From positions 1 through 29,091 of IMG/VR virus record IMGVR_UViG_3300029448_000287: a stretch of DNA of 29,091 bases, one strand, 5' to 3'. Origin of the DNA: a virus. The notes below the pieces were generated by a model that was given only the letters and a program-made list of their open reading frames with translations, was not told the DNA's origin and did not search any database. The position numbers and the translations under genes were made by a program. Of this stretch, positions 2,602 to 16,672 are shown one piece after another (positions within the stretch are counted from its first letter, which is position 1; the number at the start of each line of letters is the position of its first letter).

Positions 2602-2673
2602 ATGCCTAAAGGCGTTGGGACATATGGAACGAAAAAAGGACGACCGCCAAAAAAACCAACAAAGGGTAAATAA
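2602..2673 (+). CDS. 23-residue basic micro-protein with AT-hook-like GRP core
   Basis: A very short gene with a strong AGGAG ribosome binding site (2591-2595) seven bases before the ATG. Its stop codon overlaps the small terminase start by one base (TAATG). The product begins MPKGVGTYG and continues with a lysine-rich tail containing KKGRPPKK, which resembles the AT-hook core GRP flanked by basic residues. Short basic genes beginning MPKG are something I associate with marine phage terminase regions, but I cannot confirm this here. Likely role: DNA binding, or translational coupling of terminase. Function unproven. Confidence 0.6.
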   Translation: MPKGVGTYGTKKGRPPKKPTKGK

Positions 2674-3116
2674 TGGCTGGGCGTCCTGTATTACGAAAAC
2701 TTCTCAAAGACATCGAAACTGACGGCGGTTTTGAAAAAATTTGCGAGAAAGTTGAAGAAGGCGGATCGATTGCTGGCATTGCAAAACACTATGGCGTCTC
2801 CAGAAAATTTTTAAGCGAAATTTTAAACAAAGACCCGTCCCAAAAACTGGCTCTCGCCAACGCTCGAAAGAACCGAGGCGAATGGTACGCCCAAGAGGCG
2901 CTTCGGATTGCAGACGAAGTTGAGGAAGACAGCAACGCGATCAACAAAGCACGGGAGCGCATAAAGGTTCGCCAATGGCTTGCGTCAGCGGAAAACCCAG
3001 AGCGCTACGGCTCAAAACAAAACACAGTAACAATATCAATTGGAGAGATGCATCTGAACGCCTTAAAGAAAATTAATCAGGAAACTATCGAAGATGCAGA
3101 AGTCATCGACAACTAG
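2673..3116 (+). CDS. terS: Terminase small subunit
   Basis: Recognises the packaging site and recruits the large terminase. The 147-residue product has an N-terminal helix-turn-helix at about residues 32-52 (GSIAGIAKHYGVSRKFLSEIL). A charged helical region follows (about 60-110), with the NPERYG motif often seen in small terminase-like proteins. Length and position immediately before the large subunit fit. Its start is coupled to the preceding micro-gene. Family assignment is by motif and synteny only. Confidence 0.8.
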   Translation: MAGRPVLRKLLKDIETDGGFEKICEKVEEGGSIAGIAKHYGVSRKFLSEILNKDPSQKLALANARKNRGEWYAQEALRIADEVEEDSNAINKARERIKVRQWLASAENPERYGSKQNTVTISIGEMHLNALKKINQETIEDAEVIDN

Positions 3117-4685: not shown

Positions 4686-5122
4686 TGGGCGCTGGAGGAC
4701 TTTTAAAATTATTACCAGAGTTATTTGGCGAGTTTTCAAAAAACAAGTATCAAATTCCAGTAACGGAAATGACGAGAGTTTTAAAACCAACCCATCAAAT
4801 TGAAAAAAAAATTATCAATTGGGATAATGAAACAAATTCTTGGCGAAGATCGGTTTATGACTTTCTTGGTGGCGATCAAGACCCACAACTTGCTAGCGCT
4901 TTTCAAGGATTATCAGAATTTACGCCAATGGCAATTATGTATTCGGCTGAAGACGGGATGGACGCGGATATGAACGCTGAAAGCCAAGACCAAATAAAAG
5001 ATTATTTAAAAAATCGAGCGGCGAGTATTGGCCATAGAGGTTTAGCATTGCTTGATATGTTAGGCATTGGCGCTGGTGCTAAAGTTATAAAAAACTCTGT
5101 AAAAAAAGGTTTATTAGATTAA
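4685..5122 (+). CDS. Hypothetical phage protein
   Basis: A 145-residue protein of unknown function. Its start overlaps the large terminase stop (TAATG), with AAGGAG upstream. There is no clear membrane segment. The N-terminus (MGAGGLLKLLPELF) is amphipathic and the C-terminal 30 residues (around ALLDMLGIGAGAKVIKNS) are small-residue-rich and amphipathic, so it may contact membrane or virion. It opens the block of small genes before the holin and endolysin. Confidence 0.7.
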   Translation: MGAGGLLKLLPELFGEFSKNKYQIPVTEMTRVLKPTHQIEKKIINWDNETNSWRRSVYDFLGGDQDPQLASAFQGLSEFTPMAIMYSAEDGMDADMNAESQDQIKDYLKNRAASIGHRGLALLDMLGIGAGAKVIKNSVKKGLLD

Positions 5123-5553
5123 TGCCCGAACCAATTACACTTGCATTAGGTGCATTCGCGCTGGCGAAAAAAGCTATTGAGTTAGGCAAGGACGCTAATG
5201 AAATATCACGTTGTTTGGGAAAAGCATGGTCAGCTATCGATGACGTTAAAGCCCAAGCTGCAAACGCTAAAAAGTCTAATGATTCCAATGCATTAGAGAA
5301 ATTTATAGCCTTAAAACAAGCGGAAGATTTAGAAGAATCAATCCGAAATATAGTGATATCCCAGCGCGGAGAGGCTGGCTGGCGGCAACTTAAACAGCTA
5401 CGTCAGCAAGAAAAACAACAAAAAATAAAAGGTCGCTATCAAGCGACACGCAGAAAAAATCAAATTGTAAACGCTATAGGAATTATATGTGCAATGCTCA
5501 TTACTGGAGTTGGTGCTTATTTTATGATTATTTTTGCGATGAGGTATCAATAA
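5122..5553 (+). CDS. Membrane-anchored helical phage protein
   Basis: A 143-residue protein. The N-terminal half is helical (ITLALGAFALAKKAIELGKD...), similar in style to small virion-associated or lysis-region proteins seen in marine phages. A long charged helix covers about residues 60-110. A single transmembrane segment lies at about residues 116-139 (AIGIICAMLITGVGAYFMII), giving a tail-anchored layout. It is coupled to the previous gene by TAATG. A role in lysis is inferred from the neighbours only. Confidence 0.7.
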   Translation: MPEPITLALGAFALAKKAIELGKDANEISRCLGKAWSAIDDVKAQAANAKKSNDSNALEKFIALKQAEDLEESIRNIVISQRGEAGWRQLKQLRQQEKQQKIKGRYQATRRKNQIVNAIGIICAMLITGVGAYFMIIFAMRYQ

Positions 5554-5558
5554 GATGA

Positions 5559-5657
5559 ATGGAACCCAAGCGCATATTAGCATTAACAATTATTTTATTT
5601 TTATTAGCGTTCGCACACATAAACACTCAACCACCAGCATGGTTGATAGTTAAATGA
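5559..5657 (+). CDS. 32-residue membrane micro-protein
   Basis: A very short gene filling the gap between two coupled genes. The product is MEPKR, a hydrophobic helix (ILALTIILFLLAFA), then a short polar tail ending PPAWLIVK. Its stop overlaps the next start as ATGA, the same junction type used by the genes around it, which is the main support. The ribosome binding site is weak (GAGGT is about 15 bases upstream). A competing frame from 5555 encodes a polar peptide without features and is less likely. It may be a small holin/antiholin component. Confidence 0.55.
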   Translation: MEPKRILALTIILFLLAFAHINTQPPAWLIVK

Positions 5658-5980
5658 AAAAACTTTCAAAAGATAATCCATTAAATCAAGCTGACTTGGA
5701 TGGTGATGGAATTGTAACGACGGAAGAGTTAGACACCCATGAACGCTATATTAAAATTGATAATCAGAACCGCAAGGAAGACCAGTCACGTTTTATTATA
5801 CTCTTTAGTGTGTTTAGTGTTACAGCCTTTATAGCCATAATGTTAACGCCGTTTATTTCAATTGAGCGTGTTCAAGTGTTGCAACCAATAGGAAGCACTT
5901 GGGTCATAGCCAACATGGGTATTATTGGTACTTTTCTTGGCGTTAATGGCTACACAAAAATTAAGGAGAATGGCAAATGA
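5654..5980 (+). CDS. EF-hand protein with two membrane segments
   Basis: A 108-residue product. Residues 14-25 (DLDGDGIVTTEE) form a textbook EF-hand/dockerin-type calcium loop: D14, D16, D18, G19, V21 and E25 occupy positions 1, 3, 5, 6, 8 and 12. Two hydrophobic segments follow at about 47-67 and 79-100. This gives a soluble calcium-binding N-terminus on a two-helix membrane hairpin. The gene sits in the lysis block, so a holin-like or calcium-sensing lysis-timing role is possible but unproven. Confidence 0.75.
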   Translation: MKKLSKDNPLNQADLDGDGIVTTEELDTHERYIKIDNQNRKEDQSRFIILFSVFSVTAFIAIMLTPFISIERVQVLQPIGSTWVIANMGIIGTFLGVNGYTKIKENGK

Positions 5981-6207
5981 TGGAAGGGTACTTCGATGAC
6001 ATTTTAGAATACTTTGTCATTCCAGTTATTATGTTCGTTTGGATTATGCATCGAACTCAACAAGGTCAGGGTACAAAAATTGCCGTACTCGAAGCGCTTC
6101 TTGATCGAACGAAAGAAGGGCATGACAGAGAGATAAAAGAAATGCGTGAAACCGTAAAACATATTTTTGCCAAACTCGACATTATTGAACAGGCGTTGAG
6201 AAAATGA
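5977..6207 (+). CDS. Small membrane / coiled-coil protein (spanin- or XhlA-like)
   Basis: A 76-residue product with one N-terminal membrane segment (about residues 10-25, YFVIPVIMFVWIM) and a charged coiled coil (about 33-75). This layout occurs in phage XhlA-type lysis proteins and in inner-membrane spanins; I cannot choose between them. It overlaps both neighbours as ATGA, and AAGGAG precedes its start. Confidence 0.65.
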   Translation: MMEGYFDDILEYFVIPVIMFVWIMHRTQQGQGTKIAVLEALLDRTKEGHDREIKEMRETVKHIFAKLDIIEQALRK

Positions 6208-6632
6208 AAATCCACGAACTTGGACGGGTTGGGGAACACTACGCGGTTTATCGATTAGAACAGGCTGGCATACAGGCTATTCGCGTTGACCGTGAGGATG
6301 AAGATATCTGGGCAAGGCTTCCTAATAAAAAAATTATTTCAGTACAAGTTAAAAGTTCAAGTCCATTTAGACCATATGACCGTACCGCCCATTTTAGATT
6401 TTATTTTAGAAAAAAATATAGTTCATACAAATCAGCGGATGTATCGGTATGCGTTGGCGTAAGGCCAGAAGAAATGAATTTGCTTTGCATACAGGATAAT
6501 TTTGAAACAGAAAAACGTAGAGATATCCGCATAAATGAAAAATTTTTTAACGCAAATATTGAGAAAGAAAGTATTCAAAGGCTTATCGACGACAAACCAA
6601 TGAAACACTTTGGACAGGGGAAAGTGCAATGA
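6204..6632 (+). CDS. PD-(D/E)XK nuclease-like protein
   Basis: A 142-residue protein whose N-terminal half matches the PD-(D/E)XK nuclease core: a first helix G-x-x-GE11 followed by VYRLEQAG, an acidic residue in EDEDIW (D34 likely), then a strand ISVQVKSSS giving Q48-x-K50, the QxK variant used by Mrr-like enzymes. The C-terminal part has no motif I recognise. It lies in the lysis block with ATGA overlaps on both sides. Possible roles are host DNA degradation, resolution of packaging intermediates or exclusion of competing phages. The fold is well supported by motif spacing; the role is not. Confidence 0.72.
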   Translation: MKIHELGRVGEHYAVYRLEQAGIQAIRVDREDEDIWARLPNKKIISVQVKSSSPFRPYDRTAHFRFYFRKKYSSYKSADVSVCVGVRPEEMNLLCIQDNFETEKRRDIRINEKFFNANIEKESIQRLIDDKPMKHFGQGKVQ

Positions 6633-7006
6633 TAGGACAAATTATAGGAGCCGTAGGCGGCTTGGCAACAACTTGGCTGGAAACCAAACAGGAAACCGCT
6701 CGGAGCGCCGCCAAAGTGAAGCAAGCGAAAGCTGAAGCTGAGAGCGAAGTTTTAAAAGTTACGGCTACGCATGAAGCTGGCTGGGAAAAAATCATGGCGC
6801 AAAACTCAAATAACAGTTTTAAAGATGAAGCGTGGACTATAGCCTTTCTTATTATTTTACTGGCAAACTTCATTGAGCCGCTCCAGCCTATGATGTTACG
6901 CGGCTTTGAAAACCTTGCCAATTGCCCAGCTTGGGTTCAAGGCGGTATGTACGCCAGTATAGCCGCCAGTTTTGGTTTAAGAACAGTTAGAGGATTTAAA
7001 AAATGA
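6629..7006 (+). CDS. Holin-like protein
   Basis: A 125-residue protein with a short N-terminal hydrophobic stretch (IIGAVGGLATTWL), a charged helix (about 18-60), a central membrane segment (about 66-90, WTIAFLIILLANFIEPL) and a last hydrophobic stretch (PAWVQGGMYASIAASFGLRT). The pattern KDE-W...F...P-x-W...ASFG-x-R resembles 3-TM holins found in phages and gene transfer agents. It is immediately followed by the endolysin (ATGA overlap), which supports a holin role. Confidence 0.7.
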   Translation: MIGQIIGAVGGLATTWLETKQETARSAAKVKQAKAEAESEVLKVTATHEAGWEKIMAQNSNNSFKDEAWTIAFLIILLANFIEPLQPMMLRGFENLANCPAWVQGGMYASIAASFGLRTVRGFKK

Positions 7007-7464
7007 ATATGACAAAGTTGAAAGAAGAAATTATTGCTGACGAAGGTCGAATGGACGAAATTTATAATTGTTCTATGTCCGTTAAGACCGCTGGAATAGG
7101 TCATGCCATTCGAAAATCAGAACCAGAATACAAATTGGAGCTTGGCACAAAAGTATCGGACAAGCGTATTGACGAATGGTTTGACAGCGATATTAAAAGT
7201 ACAATTGCTGATGTTAAATTTTTATTTCCTAACATTTCAGATATTCCCGAAGAGGGTCAAAGAGTATTAGCAAATTCCTGTTTTCAACTTGGCAGAAATC
7301 GTTTGAGCCATTTTGTAAAACTTAGAAAAGCTGTGGCGGAGCCTTACTGGTGGCTTTCGAAAGAAGGAAAAGAGAAAGTTGCGGCGGAAATGAAAGACAG
7401 CCGCTGGTACAAGCAAACAACAAATCGAGTGCAACGCCACATAGATCGGATTTTAGCGTTATAG
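7003..7464 (+). CDS. Endolysin, GH24 (T4-lysozyme-like)
   Basis: Cleaves peptidoglycan at the end of infection. The first 35 residues contain the GH24 core IIADEG...TAGIGHAI. The catalytic Glu is E14; the T4 D20 and T26 positions fall on C23 and T29. The Cys form (E-x8-C-x5-T) is a known variant of this triad in phage lysozymes. The 153-residue length is typical. There is no signal or SAR sequence, so it should depend on the holin encoded just upstream. Confidence 0.88.
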   Translation: MNMTKLKEEIIADEGRMDEIYNCSMSVKTAGIGHAIRKSEPEYKLELGTKVSDKRIDEWFDSDIKSTIADVKFLFPNISDIPEEGQRVLANSCFQLGRNRLSHFVKLRKAVAEPYWWLSKEGKEKVAAEMKDSRWYKQTTNRVQRHIDRILAL

Positions 7465-7537: not shown

Positions 7538-9616
7538 TTGGCTAAACCAGAAAAGCTAACAGAAGACGATATTCACGGTATAGTCGCCAGCGCCGTCGAT
7601 GACGCAGTTGACTTTATCGAAAGCGAAATTGCGCCTGTTCGAACGAAATCAGAAAAGTATGTAAACGGCGGAGTAAATATTGGGCATGAGGACGGGCGCT
7701 CAAGCGTTGTAAATACAAAATGCCGCGATGTCGTCCGATCCATCAAGCCAAGCTTAATGCGTGTATTTTTACACGGGGATAAGCCTGTAGAGTTTGTTCC
7801 CAAGTCCCCAGAGGACGTACAGAGCGCACAGCAAGCGACAGATTATATTAATTACAAGTTTCAGCAATTAAATGGCTACAAACTTTTGAGCGGCGCAATA
7901 CATGAAGCATTAATAAAAAAAGTAGGGTTTTTACAAGTCTATTACGAAGATTATTCTAAAGCAGAAATTTACACTTACAGCTTCCTAGATGACGACGCAT
8001 TTACCCTACTTGCTAATGACGAAGAGGTCGAGGTTCTCGAGCATGAAGAAGTTGTCGAAGCTTCTGAAAATTCTCCCGAGGTTCGCTATCATAATTGCAA
8101 AATTTCCAGAACAAAAAAATCTGGCGATATTTGTATCGAAGCCATTCCCAGCGAAGAATTTTTTATTGATCGAAATGCGAAAGGTTTAAATGAAAATGAA
8201 TACTATGTTGTCGGTCATAGGACAGAAATGCGTGTCAGCGACGTTGTGGCTATGGGTTTCGATTTTGACGAAGTTAGCGAACTCTCGGGACTGGGTAGCA
8301 AAACAAGTAGCGCGGACGAAGAAATCGAAGCAAGGCGAGGCTACACAATCGACAGAGACGAAGACGAAAACTCGAAAGACTTATCGCAGAAAAAAGTCCT
8401 AATTAGCCAAGCTTATATGAGAATGGATATTGAGGGTAGCGGAACAAGCAGTCTCTATCGTTTTATCCTTGGCGGAAATAATTATAAAGTTTTAGATTAT
8501 ATGCTATGCGACGAATGCCCGATTGTGGCGTTTGAAGTTGACCCAGAGCCTCACACGTTCTTTGGCAGATCGATAGTTGATCTTATTATGACTGATCAAG
8601 ACGCCAGTACACAAATTTTGCGCGGTATCCTCGATAACGTAGCGCTGACAAATACGCCGCGAATGGCGGTTACACCAGATGTGAATATCGATGACCTATT
8701 AAACGCTGAAGTTGGCGGAGTGGTCAGAATGCGTAATTTAAATTCGATTACGCCGCTCGATATTCCATTCACCGCTGGGCAAACTTTGGGCGCTCTTCAG
8801 TATTTGGATACGCTAATCGAAAATAAGACAGGCGTAACGAGAGCAAGTGTCGGACTTGATCCTGACGCGCTCCAATCCACCACAAAAGCTGGAGTACAGG
8901 CAACATTGAGCGCCCAGCAAGGTCAAGTCGAAGTTATCGCTAGAAACCTTGCAGAAGGCGGCATGAAGCGCCTGTTTAAGCTTATGCTACATCTTATCAC
9001 AAAGCATCAGGACAAGCCGTCTATGATGCGTATGAACAGCCAATTCGTTCCAATTGATCCACGGGTTTGGAACGTCGATATGGATATGTCGTGCAATGTT
9101 GGTTTGGGTACGGGGAGAACTGAAGAAAAGACAATGGCTCTTCAGCAAGCGTTAGCGCTCCAGCAAACAATTTTTGGCGAATACGGTAACCAAAATGGCT
9201 TAGTTTCGATGACAAATATTCGAAATACTGTCGCAGATTTGCTTGGAACTATGGGGATTAAGAATGCAGATCGGTACTTCCAGCCTATGAACGAACAAAT
9301 AGAACAGCAACTTATTGCACAATCGTCTCAAGAGGATCAGGAAGCACAAAAACTTGCAATTCAAAACGACCCAGCAACAAAGCTTCTCCAAGCTGAAACA
9401 GTTAAGGCTCAGACAAAGGCTCAGACAGATTTAACCAAGATGCAACTTCAGCAACAACAACAAACGCTGAATGACGATCTTGCACGGGATAAAATGGATC
9501 AAGACTTACTTATCAAGGCGGCGGAAGTCCTAGGGAAGTATGGCACGGCGGTCGATGTAGCCGAAATTAATGCAATGAAGAACGCTCCAAGAAATGGCGG
9601 TTTAAATGGTAACTGA
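7538..9616 (+). CDS. Portal protein (P22-like)
   Basis: Forms the dodecameric DNA channel at the head vertex. The 692-residue length, order and sequence style (SSVVNTKCRDVVRSIKP near the N-terminus, FFGRSIVDLIMTDQDASTQILR in the middle, then TGVTRASVGLDPDALQ) match large portals of P22-like podoviruses. The C-terminal 130 residues are glutamine-rich and coiled-coil-like (QLQQQQQTL), resembling the barrel extension of P22-type portals. The start is TTG, preceded by AGGAAG at good spacing; no better start precedes it. Confidence 0.92.
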   Translation: MAKPEKLTEDDIHGIVASAVDDAVDFIESEIAPVRTKSEKYVNGGVNIGHEDGRSSVVNTKCRDVVRSIKPSLMRVFLHGDKPVEFVPKSPEDVQSAQQATDYINYKFQQLNGYKLLSGAIHEALIKKVGFLQVYYEDYSKAEIYTYSFLDDDAFTLLANDEEVEVLEHEEVVEASENSPEVRYHNCKISRTKKSGDICIEAIPSEEFFIDRNAKGLNENEYYVVGHRTEMRVSDVVAMGFDFDEVSELSGLGSKTSSADEEIEARRGYTIDRDEDENSKDLSQKKVLISQAYMRMDIEGSGTSSLYRFILGGNNYKVLDYMLCDECPIVAFEVDPEPHTFFGRSIVDLIMTDQDASTQILRGILDNVALTNTPRMAVTPDVNIDDLLNAEVGGVVRMRNLNSITPLDIPFTAGQTLGALQYLDTLIENKTGVTRASVGLDPDALQSTTKAGVQATLSAQQGQVEVIARNLAEGGMKRLFKLMLHLITKHQDKPSMMRMNSQFVPIDPRVWNVDMDMSCNVGLGTGRTEEKTMALQQALALQQTIFGEYGNQNGLVSMTNIRNTVADLLGTMGIKNADRYFQPMNEQIEQQLIAQSSQEDQEAQKLAIQNDPATKLLQAETVKAQTKAQTDLTKMQLQQQQQTLNDDLARDKMDQDLLIKAAEVLGKYGTAVDVAEINAMKNAPRNGGLNGN

Positions 9617-13396: not shown

Positions 13397-16300
13397 ATGT
13401 CAACAATTGTAAATAGAGTATCAAAAGGAACGAAGCTTACTTTCGCTGAAGTTGACGCGAACTTTTCAAATCTAAACACGGATAAGGCGGAGATGACGCA
13501 TTCGGATACTCCGCCTTCCTCGCCAACCGTTGGGGATTTTTGGTTCGATACTTCGACATTAACTACCTACGTTTATTACAACTCTCAATGGGTACAATCA
13601 GTCGTCGCCTCTGGCGGTAACGCTGGCGGCTCTGGAATAAGTTTAGGAAGTTTAAGCGTTGGAGCCGAGGGAACTGCAAGCGGCGATGGCTCAGTTACTT
13701 ACAACAATTCGACAGGAGTATTTACTTATACTCCGCCAGTAATTTCTGGAAGTTCAACCACCGTTGTTGCTAATGCCGCTAATCTTCCCACAAGCCCTTC
13801 AGACGGTGACTTAGCGTTTGCAGCCGACACTAGCCGTTTGTATCTTTCTCGAAACAACGCTTGGTACTCGGTGGCTCTCGTTAACACCGCCCCAAGCGTA
13901 TCTGGAAATCAGGCAACTTACGAATTGGCTACAGATGGAACAGCTACCGTTGTAACAATGTCAGCAACAGACCCCGAGGGCGATCCGATTACTTGGTCAC
14001 ACACAGCAAGTGGTCTTGGATCAATCGCGACGATATCTAGGTCTAACAATGTTTTCACCATTACTCCAAATACTAGCAACGTAGCTGGTACGTTTTCAGT
14101 TTCTTTTCAAGCTTCGGATGGGGCAAATACGGCGAATGCAACATCATCTTTTACTCTTACTTTTGCTAGTCCAATGACAAGAGGCACTCAGTTGCTCACA
14201 AAAACTTCTGGGAATAATAATAGAACAAATTCAGTATTTGACGATAGTTCAACAAGCAATCATACCATCACTCCGAATGGAGACGTTTACCAGACGTCTT
14301 TCAGCCCGTACTCTGTTCCACAGGGATTTTGGTCTTCAAACTTTGCGGCTAAAAGCGATCAATTAAATTTTACATCAGTTGATTTAGGAACTGGTAATTT
14401 TACGATTGAGGCATGGGTCAAGCCCGACAATTTAACTGGTTATCACGCGATGATTGCTCATGATAATACCTCGAACTCTTACTTTCAATTCCACATGCAC
14501 GGAGCAAATATTCAGTTTTGGGAAGCTTCCCAATTAACAGCTACAGGCGTTATGGTTGCAAACGAGTGGCAGCACGTAGCCTTAACAAAAGACACATCGA
14601 CCTCCACTCCTACTTTCACAATTTATCATAACGGAAAAAATGTTGCTCAAGCTACAAACGGGACGAGTGTTAGGCATATTAATAGAATTGCAAATTATTC
14701 TGCTGGAAACAATAGCGAAGGTTACCAAGGAAAAATGTCAAATGTAAGACTTTCTAATACCCTACGTTATCAAGGAGATTATTTTACACCGCCCAGTCAA
14801 TTTACGTCAGACAGCAATACTCTTTTACTTGCTTGTGCATCAAACAGATTTATCGATAATAGTTCAAATGCAGTTGCTCTAACCGCTACAACTGGTAGTT
14901 CAATTAGTACGGATATTCCTTCGTGGGTATTACCTGATGTTTGGAAAGCAACAGTTAATGGCTCGGCTTATTTGGACGGGTCAGGGGATTCTTTATCTAT
15001 TGCAAGTACGACAGACCTAGCATTTGGAACTGCTGAGTTCACCATATCTTTTTGGCTGAATATTGTTAGTCAAGCAACAACATATTCATCAATTTTAGAT
15101 TGGCGTCATTCTTCTCAAACCGACGCTTCTGCTATCTCGATAAGTTTTGATAGTAGTAAGTTATATGTTTATAACGCTGGATATTTAATCAATAATTTGC
15201 CTCGTAATTTAAATCAATGGCAGCACATCGTTTTTCAAAGAAGAAATATAGGTGGAACTTTAACTAACGAATTTTTTATAAATGGAGTGTCAGTACATTC
15301 CGCTGCAAACTCGACTAACTGGACGGCAAGCACTTTAAAAATTGGTTCTTCAACTTGGAATGATCACGCGAATTTTTACATAAGTGATTTAAAAATAAAT
15401 AAGGCTAATGCTGTATATTCGTCAGCGTTTACTCCGCCTACCTCACCCAGCGCACTTGATGCAAGTACGATATTAAAACTTAATTTTACAGATGTTGGTA
15501 TTTTCGATAGTGCAGCAAGAAGTTCTATTAAACTGATTGGAAATACGAAAGAAAGCACTACGCAAACAAAATATGGAACTACAAGTTTTTACTTAGATGG
15601 AAGTGGTGATTATGTAAATATTACAGGGTTATATCCGCCAAGAGTAGGTGACTTCCAGTTGGAAGGATGGTTTTACGAAACTTCTTCTGGCGACAACGGA
15701 TTATTCCAAGCCTTTGCTCCGCTATCAAACTCAACTGGCGGCGTGGCTATCGGAACCGTTGGCGCTACAATGTGGTATCAACAGGCAAATAGCCAAACAA
15801 ATATTGGGTCGCATTGGGGTCAAAACGCATGGAAACATCTTGCCGTAGTTAGACGAAATGGCGTCCAGCATTTATTTGTAGATGGAACAAGAATTGATGT
15901 TCGAGCCAATACGACAGACCTGACTGATGGCCAAATAAACTTGGGCGGTTATTATTCTACAGGCAATTTAACGACAGCTTATTACGAAGATTTTCGTTAT
16001 TTAAAAGGTCACACAACCTATCCTAATGAAGCGCCTCAAATACCCTTAACCGCCGTTTCTGGAACATCTTTACAGCTTGCAAACGCCTCTACAATCCCCA
16101 GTTCACCAAACGGATTAACCTTGACGGCATCCGAGGGATCACCAACCGTTTCGACTTTTACGCCATCCTACTCAACGGTAACCCACAGTATTTACTACGA
16201 TGGAAATGATATCACAAAAATTGATGCTAATACTGCTTTGAACTTTGGAGTAACGGATTTCACTATTGAAGGACATTTTTATTTGGTTGCGAACGTAAGC

Positions 16301-16672
16301 ACATACAATGCGTTATTTGATAATCGTGTAACAAACAATAATCAAGGGTTTAGTCTTTCAACAAATGGTACAAATATGTACTTATATTCCGCCGCCTATA
16401 TTGTTAATAATATTCCTTTTTCTTTTGGAAAGTGGCATCATATTGTCTATCAAAGGAAAACAGTATCAGGCACACCAACCCATCAGATTTATGTTGACGG
16501 TATGTTTATAGGAGAAAGCACTACCGCTAGAACTTATGGTAATAATCCCTTCTATATAGGTGGTGGGATGGGTACTTCTGAAAATCATAATATGTATGTG
16601 TCTGACTTTAGAATTGTTAAGGGTTCGGCGGTTTACGATAAATCATTTACACCACCCACAGGAGCGCTCTAA
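13397..16672 (+). CDS. Large tail fibre with cadherin-like and four LamG-type lectin domains
   Basis: A 1091-residue adhesion protein, preceded by AGGGGA. The N-terminus carries two short SP..GD..(F/W)....Y.Y/L....W modules (about 38-66 and 128-156) that probably attach to the virion. Residues about 160-258 form a cadherin/Ig-like domain (NTAPSV...ATDPEGDPITW...FTITPNTSNVAGTF). Four concanavalin-A-like LamG domains follow at about 310-485, 520-695, 728-895 and 930-1091. Each has a FTIE.W / ISFW-type strand, a W-Q/K-H-(I/V/L)-(A/V) motif and a YVDG/FING/HNGK hairpin, and three end with TPP. This fits glycan binding at the host surface. Domain limits are approximate. Confidence 0.85.
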   Translation: MSTIVNRVSKGTKLTFAEVDANFSNLNTDKAEMTHSDTPPSSPTVGDFWFDTSTLTTYVYYNSQWVQSVVASGGNAGGSGISLGSLSVGAEGTASGDGSVTYNNSTGVFTYTPPVISGSSTTVVANAANLPTSPSDGDLAFAADTSRLYLSRNNAWYSVALVNTAPSVSGNQATYELATDGTATVVTMSATDPEGDPITWSHTASGLGSIATISRSNNVFTITPNTSNVAGTFSVSFQASDGANTANATSSFTLTFASPMTRGTQLLTKTSGNNNRTNSVFDDSSTSNHTITPNGDVYQTSFSPYSVPQGFWSSNFAAKSDQLNFTSVDLGTGNFTIEAWVKPDNLTGYHAMIAHDNTSNSYFQFHMHGANIQFWEASQLTATGVMVANEWQHVALTKDTSTSTPTFTIYHNGKNVAQATNGTSVRHINRIANYSAGNNSEGYQGKMSNVRLSNTLRYQGDYFTPPSQFTSDSNTLLLACASNRFIDNSSNAVALTATTGSSISTDIPSWVLPDVWKATVNGSAYLDGSGDSLSIASTTDLAFGTAEFTISFWLNIVSQATTYSSILDWRHSSQTDASAISISFDSSKLYVYNAGYLINNLPRNLNQWQHIVFQRRNIGGTLTNEFFINGVSVHSAANSTNWTASTLKIGSSTWNDHANFYISDLKINKANAVYSSAFTPPTSPSALDASTILKLNFTDVGIFDSAARSSIKLIGNTKESTTQTKYGTTSFYLDGSGDYVNITGLYPPRVGDFQLEGWFYETSSGDNGLFQAFAPLSNSTGGVAIGTVGATMWYQQANSQTNIGSHWGQNAWKHLAVVRRNGVQHLFVDGTRIDVRANTTDLTDGQINLGGYYSTGNLTTAYYEDFRYLKGHTTYPNEAPQIPLTAVSGTSLQLANASTIPSSPNGLTLTASEGSPTVSTFTPSYSTVTHSIYYDGNDITKIDANTALNFGVTDFTIEGHFYLVANVSTYNALFDNRVTNNNQGFSLSTNGTNMYLYSAAYIVNNIPFSFGKWHHIVYQRKTVSGTPTHQIYVDGMFIGESTTARTYGNNPFYIGGGMGTSENHNMYVSDFRIVKGSAVYDKSFTPPTGAL

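Follow-up and report, generated by a model that had tools for sequence, protein, structure and literature searches.

A short phage protein carrying an EF-type calcium loop directly ahead of two membrane helices represents a phage protein family that is real, conserved and unexplained, and its sequence and gene neighbours make lysis the likely process in which it acts. The window, as we call the whole stretch of DNA analysed, is a virus contig of 29,091 bases that constitutes its source record, and the gene in question, hereafter the loop gene, lies at 5654-5980 on the plus strand. Our preferred reading is that its product may be a lysis protein of holin-like type that carries its own calcium sensor, which we regard as close to evenly poised but slightly on the doubtful side.

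The coordinates, strand and frame of the loop gene were re-derived exactly, with an ATG at 5654, a stop codon ending at 5980 and a product of 108 aa (MKKLSKDNPLNQADLDGDGIVTTEELDTHERYIKIDNQNRKEDQSRFIILFSVFSVTAFIAIMLTPFISIERVQVLQPIGSTWVIANMGIIGTFLGVNGYTKIKENGK). By hydropathy, two membrane segments follow the loop, at residues 47-65 (2.51; 5792-5848, plus strand) and 79-97 (1.50; 5888-5944, plus strand), and the best family in a PHROGs profile search is phrog_27150, a large unnamed phage family (E=1.2e-07). The 12-residue loop itself, DLDGDGIVTTEE, occupies codons 14-25 (5693-5728, plus strand) and fits an EF loop at every ligand position. Positions 1, 3, 5, 7 (backbone), 9 and 12 are D, D, D, I, T and E, which bears out the six-ligand loop that the original prediction placed at these residues. 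The E at position 12 of an EF loop is a bidentate, calcium-type ligand.

A PROSITE-like full EF pattern was run alongside a stricter loop-only pattern (D/N/S at 1, 3 and 5, G at 6, a hydrophobic residue at 8, an oxygen ligand at 9 and D/E at 12). Residue 14 of the loop protein is where the full pattern's only match lies among the 170 six-frame ORFs counted in the window. Shuffling the window protein 20,000 times produced the full pattern 12 times, and 1 of the 3,189 other ORFs called in the relatives' loci has it; the strict pattern turned up in 2 of the 20,000 shuffles and in 2 of the 3,189 ORFs. Profile matches are fainter. Pfam EF-hand_5 reaches E=0.0013 and 18.5 bits on the window protein, under its curated cut-off of 25.9, EF-hand_1 reaches 13.8 bits against a cut-off of 25.4, and the PHROGs EF-hand matches are sub-threshold as well. 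When 48 members of the family were scanned, EF-hand_5 matched 44 and EF-hand_1 matched 36 at E<=0.1. The family profile also matches calmodulins, with E values down to 4.9e-09; these values score the sequence as a whole, none of its stretches passing by itself, and are therefore given little weight.

Relatives were gathered at several distances. Close relatives at 82-92% identity were found in 25 viral-contig loci, and tblastn against 50,697 phage records returned 15 records at 26.7-32.7% identity, from Limnohabitans, Roseobacter, Methylophilales and Sinorhizobium phages, and another query contributed Pelagibacter phage HTVC008M, CRP-345 and CRP-810. The member from phage Melnitz (L029) is annotated as hypothetical only. 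Three more viral-contig scans with single-protein queries yielded 204, at least 586 and 325 confirmed relatives, and 80 were kept from each. The conservation sample thus holds 276 proteins, namely the window protein and those of 275 loci, with a duplicate of the window (L033) excluded. All scans were seeded from members, some via peptide patterns inside the loop, so that loop-less relatives may be under-sampled. As a control, the protein of Limnohabitans phage DC31 was used as a query without its loop; the 8 phage records it matched at E<=10 are without exception loop carriers (three Melnitz records via 100% identity). The loop-less window protein matched 4 Melnitz records (E=0.07) and five further sequences at E 4-9 (four Streptomyces, one Synechococcus), which were treated as chance. 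No plasmid match to the DC31 relative was found at E<=0.01. The lone 'cellular' relative from genome contigs (L277) was rejected as chance: its frame is open through the 137 residues translated, it resembles a transporter permease by eye, and it has no D at loop position 1.

The conservation of the ligands, on which the original prediction had staked itself beforehand, held. D14, G19 and E25 are invariant (276/276) and positions 16 and 18 are D or N throughout, so that D/N/E ligands are kept at 14, 16, 18 and 25 in all 276 proteins. Position 22 is T, S or D in 274, the exceptions being V and A in two Sinorhizobium phage proteins, and position 20, the backbone ligand, is variable (K, V, I, T and others). 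The strict loop pattern accordingly matches the window protein and 274 of the 276 members. The full PROSITE-like pattern matches 191; in the 12 failing sequences that were printed, the residue following the loop is H and not the hydrophobic one the pattern calls for. After greedy clustering at 70% identity 15 representatives remained; apart from a single V at 22, they have ligand-type residues at each of the five side-chain positions. At the codon level, pairwise comparisons that ignore kinship gave synonymous differences of 0.39-0.44 at the five side-chain ligand codons in all four groups of relatives, and non-synonymous differences of 0.000, 0.000, 0.045 and 0.120 per group; the non-synonymous changes listed in the latter two groups are D/N and S/T/D swaps. 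These data support strong selection on the loop. Support for a calcium-type loop is as good as sequence allows, and calcium binding is putative.

The structure around the loop departs from a canonical EF-hand. The AlphaFold model of the window protein (mean pLDDT 80.8, pTM 0.55) has helices at 23-63 and 70-107, and that of a relative of the CRP-9 type (mean pLDDT 72.7, pTM 0.43) has a long helix at 15-55. In both models the exiting helix and membrane helix 1 form a single helix directly after the loop, and a hairpin and a second long helix follow; the two models are not fully independent because their input alignments share members. The claim of two membrane helices after the loop is hence upheld by hydropathy and by AlphaFold alike, and the exiting helix and membrane helix 1 are predicted to form one rod. 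The claim of an EF-hand survives for the loop, by pattern and conservation, and fails for the full helix-loop-helix: the entering helix is nearly absent, comprising residues 9-12 in the window model and only 3-5 in the other, and the models lack the helix-loop-helix of the EF-hand superfamily. In CRP-9-type members the loop starts at residue 6, with just 5 residues ahead of it. For these reasons 'loop-helix' or half EF-hand is the better description. Of the 179 members in which two or more segments were detected, 178 have their K/R excess outside the hairpin loop, which predicts an N-in/C-in topology with the loop in the cytoplasm; in 97 of the 276 members one membrane segment only was detected at the threshold used. 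The cytoplasm has low free calcium, so a cytoplasmic loop should be empty until the membrane leaks.

Single unpaired EF loops can serve as structural helix caps. It is therefore conceivable, if on balance unlikely, that the protein is holin-like but that calcium or another divalent ion merely stabilises the fold of the juxtamembrane helix, with no gating. The same conservation and context data fit such a role, and both models place the loop just ahead of one long helix. One might, however, expect some members to have dropped or exchanged a cap that is merely structural, whereas none of the 276 sampled has lost it and position 12 is E throughout. This argument is weakened in turn by the sample having been found by similarity to loop-bearing members.

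The loop gene of the window sits in a run of small membrane-protein genes, all on the plus strand, that leads to an endolysin candidate. Upstream, at 5122-5553, lies a 143-aa partner gene, phrog_32327-like by profile match, with a C-terminal TM; this placement ahead of the loop gene recurs in three of the four groups. Between the two, ORF reading revealed an unlisted mini-ORF of 32 aa with a single TM (5559-5657), whose stop codon shares bases with the ATG of the loop gene (ATGA). Comparable mini-ORFs of 30-35 aa stand at the same place in the 24 other window-group loci printed, an alignment of 20 sequences has a C-terminal PxW in every one, and codon differences show a third-position excess (2,872 vs 2,229 and 1,276). 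The mini-ORF evolves fast, since 2,621 of 3,874 codon differences change the residue. It may encode a new small membrane protein, and its translation may be coupled to that of the loop gene. Downstream, a 76-aa protein with an N-terminal TM and a charged coiled-coil-like tail (5977-6207) belongs by clustering to a cluster (37) that also occurs in CRP-9-type loci. It is followed by a 142-aa ORF at 6204-6632, which lies among the membrane genes and has weak matches to DUF4365 (E=0.014) and phrog_5018 (E=1.9e-06).

The last membrane gene of the run (6629-7006) encodes a 125-aa protein of phrog_2524 (E=7.6e-23), a possible second holin-like protein; against the holin family phrog_3427 it reaches E=0.34 only. 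It precedes a candidate endolysin of the lysozyme family at 7003-7464 (PF00959, 23.1 bits vs a cut-off of 22.3), 1.0 kb from the loop gene. Neither PF11351 nor a profile of the relatives' PF11351-type proteins matched anywhere in the window. The original prediction had described a lysis block with holin genes; the PF00959 gene upholds the lysis setting, and these profile searches identified no neighbouring gene of the window as a holin. Elsewhere in the window, an SU10-type portal (7538-9616; PF23899, 601.8 bits) and an Sf6-type small terminase (2673-3116; PF20901, 65.6 bits) form what we take to be a podovirus-like packaging set, and a 1,091-aa protein (13397-16672) has several internally similar stretches that by eye resemble LamG-type repeats.

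The tie to lysis that had been proposed is supported by relatives, which stand beside different endolysins and spanins. The ORFs of each fetched locus were clustered and searched with profiles on the same strand; the resulting counts are lower bounds because contigs are fragments, and loci within a group are related and so not independent events. The CRP-9 group has a phrog_465 endolysin in 80 of 82 loci, its start at a median distance of 0 bases, a spanin-like lipoprotein with a C-terminal TM in 82/82 and the phrog_32327-like partner in 55/82. One cluster member of this lipoprotein is the depositor-named spanin2 of CRP-345, a genome in which a depositor-named endolysin is likewise near the loop gene, and the lipoprotein is weakly Rz-like (phrog_1804). 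In the DC31 group, which comprises 81 loci and whose counts are unions over profiles, Rz-like profiles match in 79 loci and endolysin profiles in 77 (69 of M15 type), and the partner is present in 75. A weakly XhlA-like coiled-coil gene with one TM (phrog_1193 hemolysin, E=0.0028 and 0.014) recurs in some loci, some of them DC31-type. The window group (26 loci) has the partner in 25, a PF11351-type holin in 13 and GH108 in 7; the window locus itself has the partner and lacks the PF11351-type and GH108 genes. Because the endolysin families differ, the association with lysis genes is not simply one inherited gene order, and neighbours that are non-homologous endolysins and spanins argue for a function in lysis.

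The fourth group, obtained with a T4-like query, has a different setting. Here a gp51-like gene is present in 48 of 82 loci and a tape-measure gene in 40, with an endolysin profile in 1/82 and the partner in 2/82. The loop gene of T4-like relatives, Sinorhizobium T4-like phages included, lies mostly between the gp51-like hub-assembly and tape-measure genes. Of the 30 loci without hub context, 12 were read. Lysis genes were noted in four loci only: L183 has a phrog_181 endolysin with an Rz1-like phrog_812 gene, L190 an Rz gene (phrog_739) with Rz1-like phrog_812, L186 an i-spanin cluster shared with L190, and L191 an M15-like gene. In L159, L146, L165 and L191 the loop gene is outside the hub operon, surrounded by what seem on inspection to be enzyme genes of the sugar, nucleotide and radical-SAM types, so its place is not fixed in this group.

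This setting lends indirect support to the role in entry that had been suggested beside lysis, as one large group places the gene mostly between hub-assembly and tape-measure genes. The loop protein would then be a membrane or virion protein for tail-hub assembly or DNA entry, with calcium reporting the outside or the periplasm. The gene order of CRP-810 fits as well: two very large genes precede the loop gene, and a depositor-named internal virion protein D lies beyond them. The presence of the loop gene in the lysis cassettes of other relatives speaks against such a role, which we hold to be the least probable of the readings weighed and quite improbable overall. Among the matches listed, no virion proteomics bearing on the loop protein was on point.

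By size and place, with one to three TM segments near an endolysin or spanin, the loop protein looks like a holin in the CRP-9 and DC31 groups and in the window, and does not in the greater part of the T4-like group. The searches tied it to no named holin family: Phage_holin_3_6 gave E=0.098 on the window protein and matched 5 of 48 members at E<=0.1. Foldseek against BFVD and PDB returned nothing at E<=0.001, the best BFVD match being an unnamed 148-aa protein (E=0.028). Across 10 records searched, PF04971 matched none, its control working, and PF11031 and PF10746 matched none in the records and none in the controls either, so that these two negatives carry no weight. PF11351 (GTA_holin_3TM) matched 1/10, namely CRP-810, where the protein is encoded next door to the loop gene; some other loci of relatives likewise encode it separately from the loop protein.

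Such neighbours raise an alternative in which the loop protein is an antiholin or co-holin, the PF11351 protein or phrog_2524 is a separate holin, and calcium sets the timing. The PF11351-type genes in half of the window group and in CRP-810, together with phrog_2524 in the window, are consistent with this arrangement, and one report describes two holin-like proteins of one cassette as jointly required (PMC13056207). Searches for a second candidate tell against it: at the threshold used, a further short ORF with at least two segments inside 2.6 kb is lacking in 74 of the 81 DC31-type loci (7/81 have one), and the extra ORFs of this kind in 29 of 82 CRP-9-type loci are all explained by the spanin cluster. 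We consider the antiholin or co-holin alternative improbable. Scans of short proteins in three genomes bear on the preferred reading in both directions. In its favour, among the 46 short CDS entries of CRP-1 (67 features; the loop gene entered twice), two segments occur only in the loop protein and the spanin; against it, CRP-9 has 3 other short proteins with at least two segments elsewhere in the genome (49 scanned) and DC31 has 4 (98 scanned).

Returning to the preferred reading of a holin-like protein with its own calcium sensor, we infer both calcium gating and holin activity, and the following sequence of events may be envisaged. As long as free calcium in the cytoplasm stays low, the protein would build up in the inner membrane without harm. 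Once the membrane first leaked locally or depolarised, outside calcium would be admitted, the loop would fill and its acidic charge cluster would be neutralised, and the rod could then move or pair with a neighbour. The protein would thereupon assemble or open, more calcium would enter, and this positive feedback would end in sudden lysis. In the window, with phrog_2524 before the lysozyme, and in PF11351-bearing relatives, the loop protein could be a calcium-sensing partner and not the sole holin. Points that count against the preferred reading are the baseplate setting of the T4-like group, the PF11351-type holins of half the window group and of CRP-810, the failure to match a known holin, the 97 members with one detected segment and the two with V or A at loop position 9. 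The original prediction had looked to the calcium of sea water in particular; that idea is rejected, because the same loop is carried by phage DC31, of freshwater source, and by Sinorhizobium phages. The broader proposal, that calcium-gated holins are widespread in phages of marine, freshwater and soil bacteria and that inflowing calcium drives sudden lysis by positive feedback, is one we advance as a speculative possibility, leaning towards doubt.

It has long been asked what makes holins fire suddenly, and we know of no ion ligand that acts as a holin trigger. In a holin-like protein with a hard-wired site of calcium type, a model of triggering by a ligand is open to direct test; calcium gating is a daring idea, but a cheap one to test. 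If it is true, the T4-like phages of SAR11 and OM43 (HTVC008M and Melnitz) could use the loop protein, which is annotated in them as hypothetical only, as their holin, and ocean phages such as Melnitz would gain a concrete lysis-gene candidate. The Melnitz paper contains, by word count, no words beginning with 'holin', and its authors suggest that the curli pore CsgG may be a functional analogue of pinholins (PMC9004378). Holin, EF-hand, calcium and lysis are all absent from the main text of a paper on pelagimyophages (PMC7029224). According to another report, most CRP-822-type roseophages, a separate roseophage group, have holin and endolysin genes (PMC12629253), so roseophage holins of some kind are already annotated. 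None of the titles and abstract openings listed describes a holin, or a membrane protein of phage lysis, that bears an EF-type loop, subscription journals and preprints being outside the scope of the search. The structural proteins of phage TP-84 were reportedly screened for EF-hands with none found (PMC5889276), and the EF-hand gene in another report is a host gene of an archaeon (PMC9694453).

Several known systems share part of this architecture. Class II-type holins and pinholins, such as S of phage 21, have two TM segments and an N-in/C-in topology. The loop protein is like them, and like mycobacteriophage LysF1a as described in PMC13056207, in size, in its two segments, in its N-in/C-in charge pattern and in its endolysin and spanin neighbours. 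It differs from them in having no detectable match to the holin families tested and in the calcium-type loop fused to TM1. To our knowledge, no known holin has such a fusion. The PBSX cassette XhlA/XhlB/XlyA of a Bacillus phage combines a coiled-coil protein with one TM, a protein with two TM and a lysin. It resembles the DC31-type cassettes that have the weakly XhlA-like protein; the likeness drawn here is one of gene set, and we know of no calcium loop in the PBSX cassette. LysGH15 is a peptidoglycan-cutting enzyme. The title of a 2014 report describes it as an EF-hand-like calcium-binding lysin. It and the loop protein would both be phage lysis proteins with an EF-type calcium site, that of the loop protein sitting on a membrane protein. 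Dockerin and Excalibur are single EF-type loop-helix motifs of bacteria, found in extracellular domains. Like them, the loop protein has a calcium loop and then one helix, with no true entering helix; unlike them, its helix after the loop continues into the membrane.
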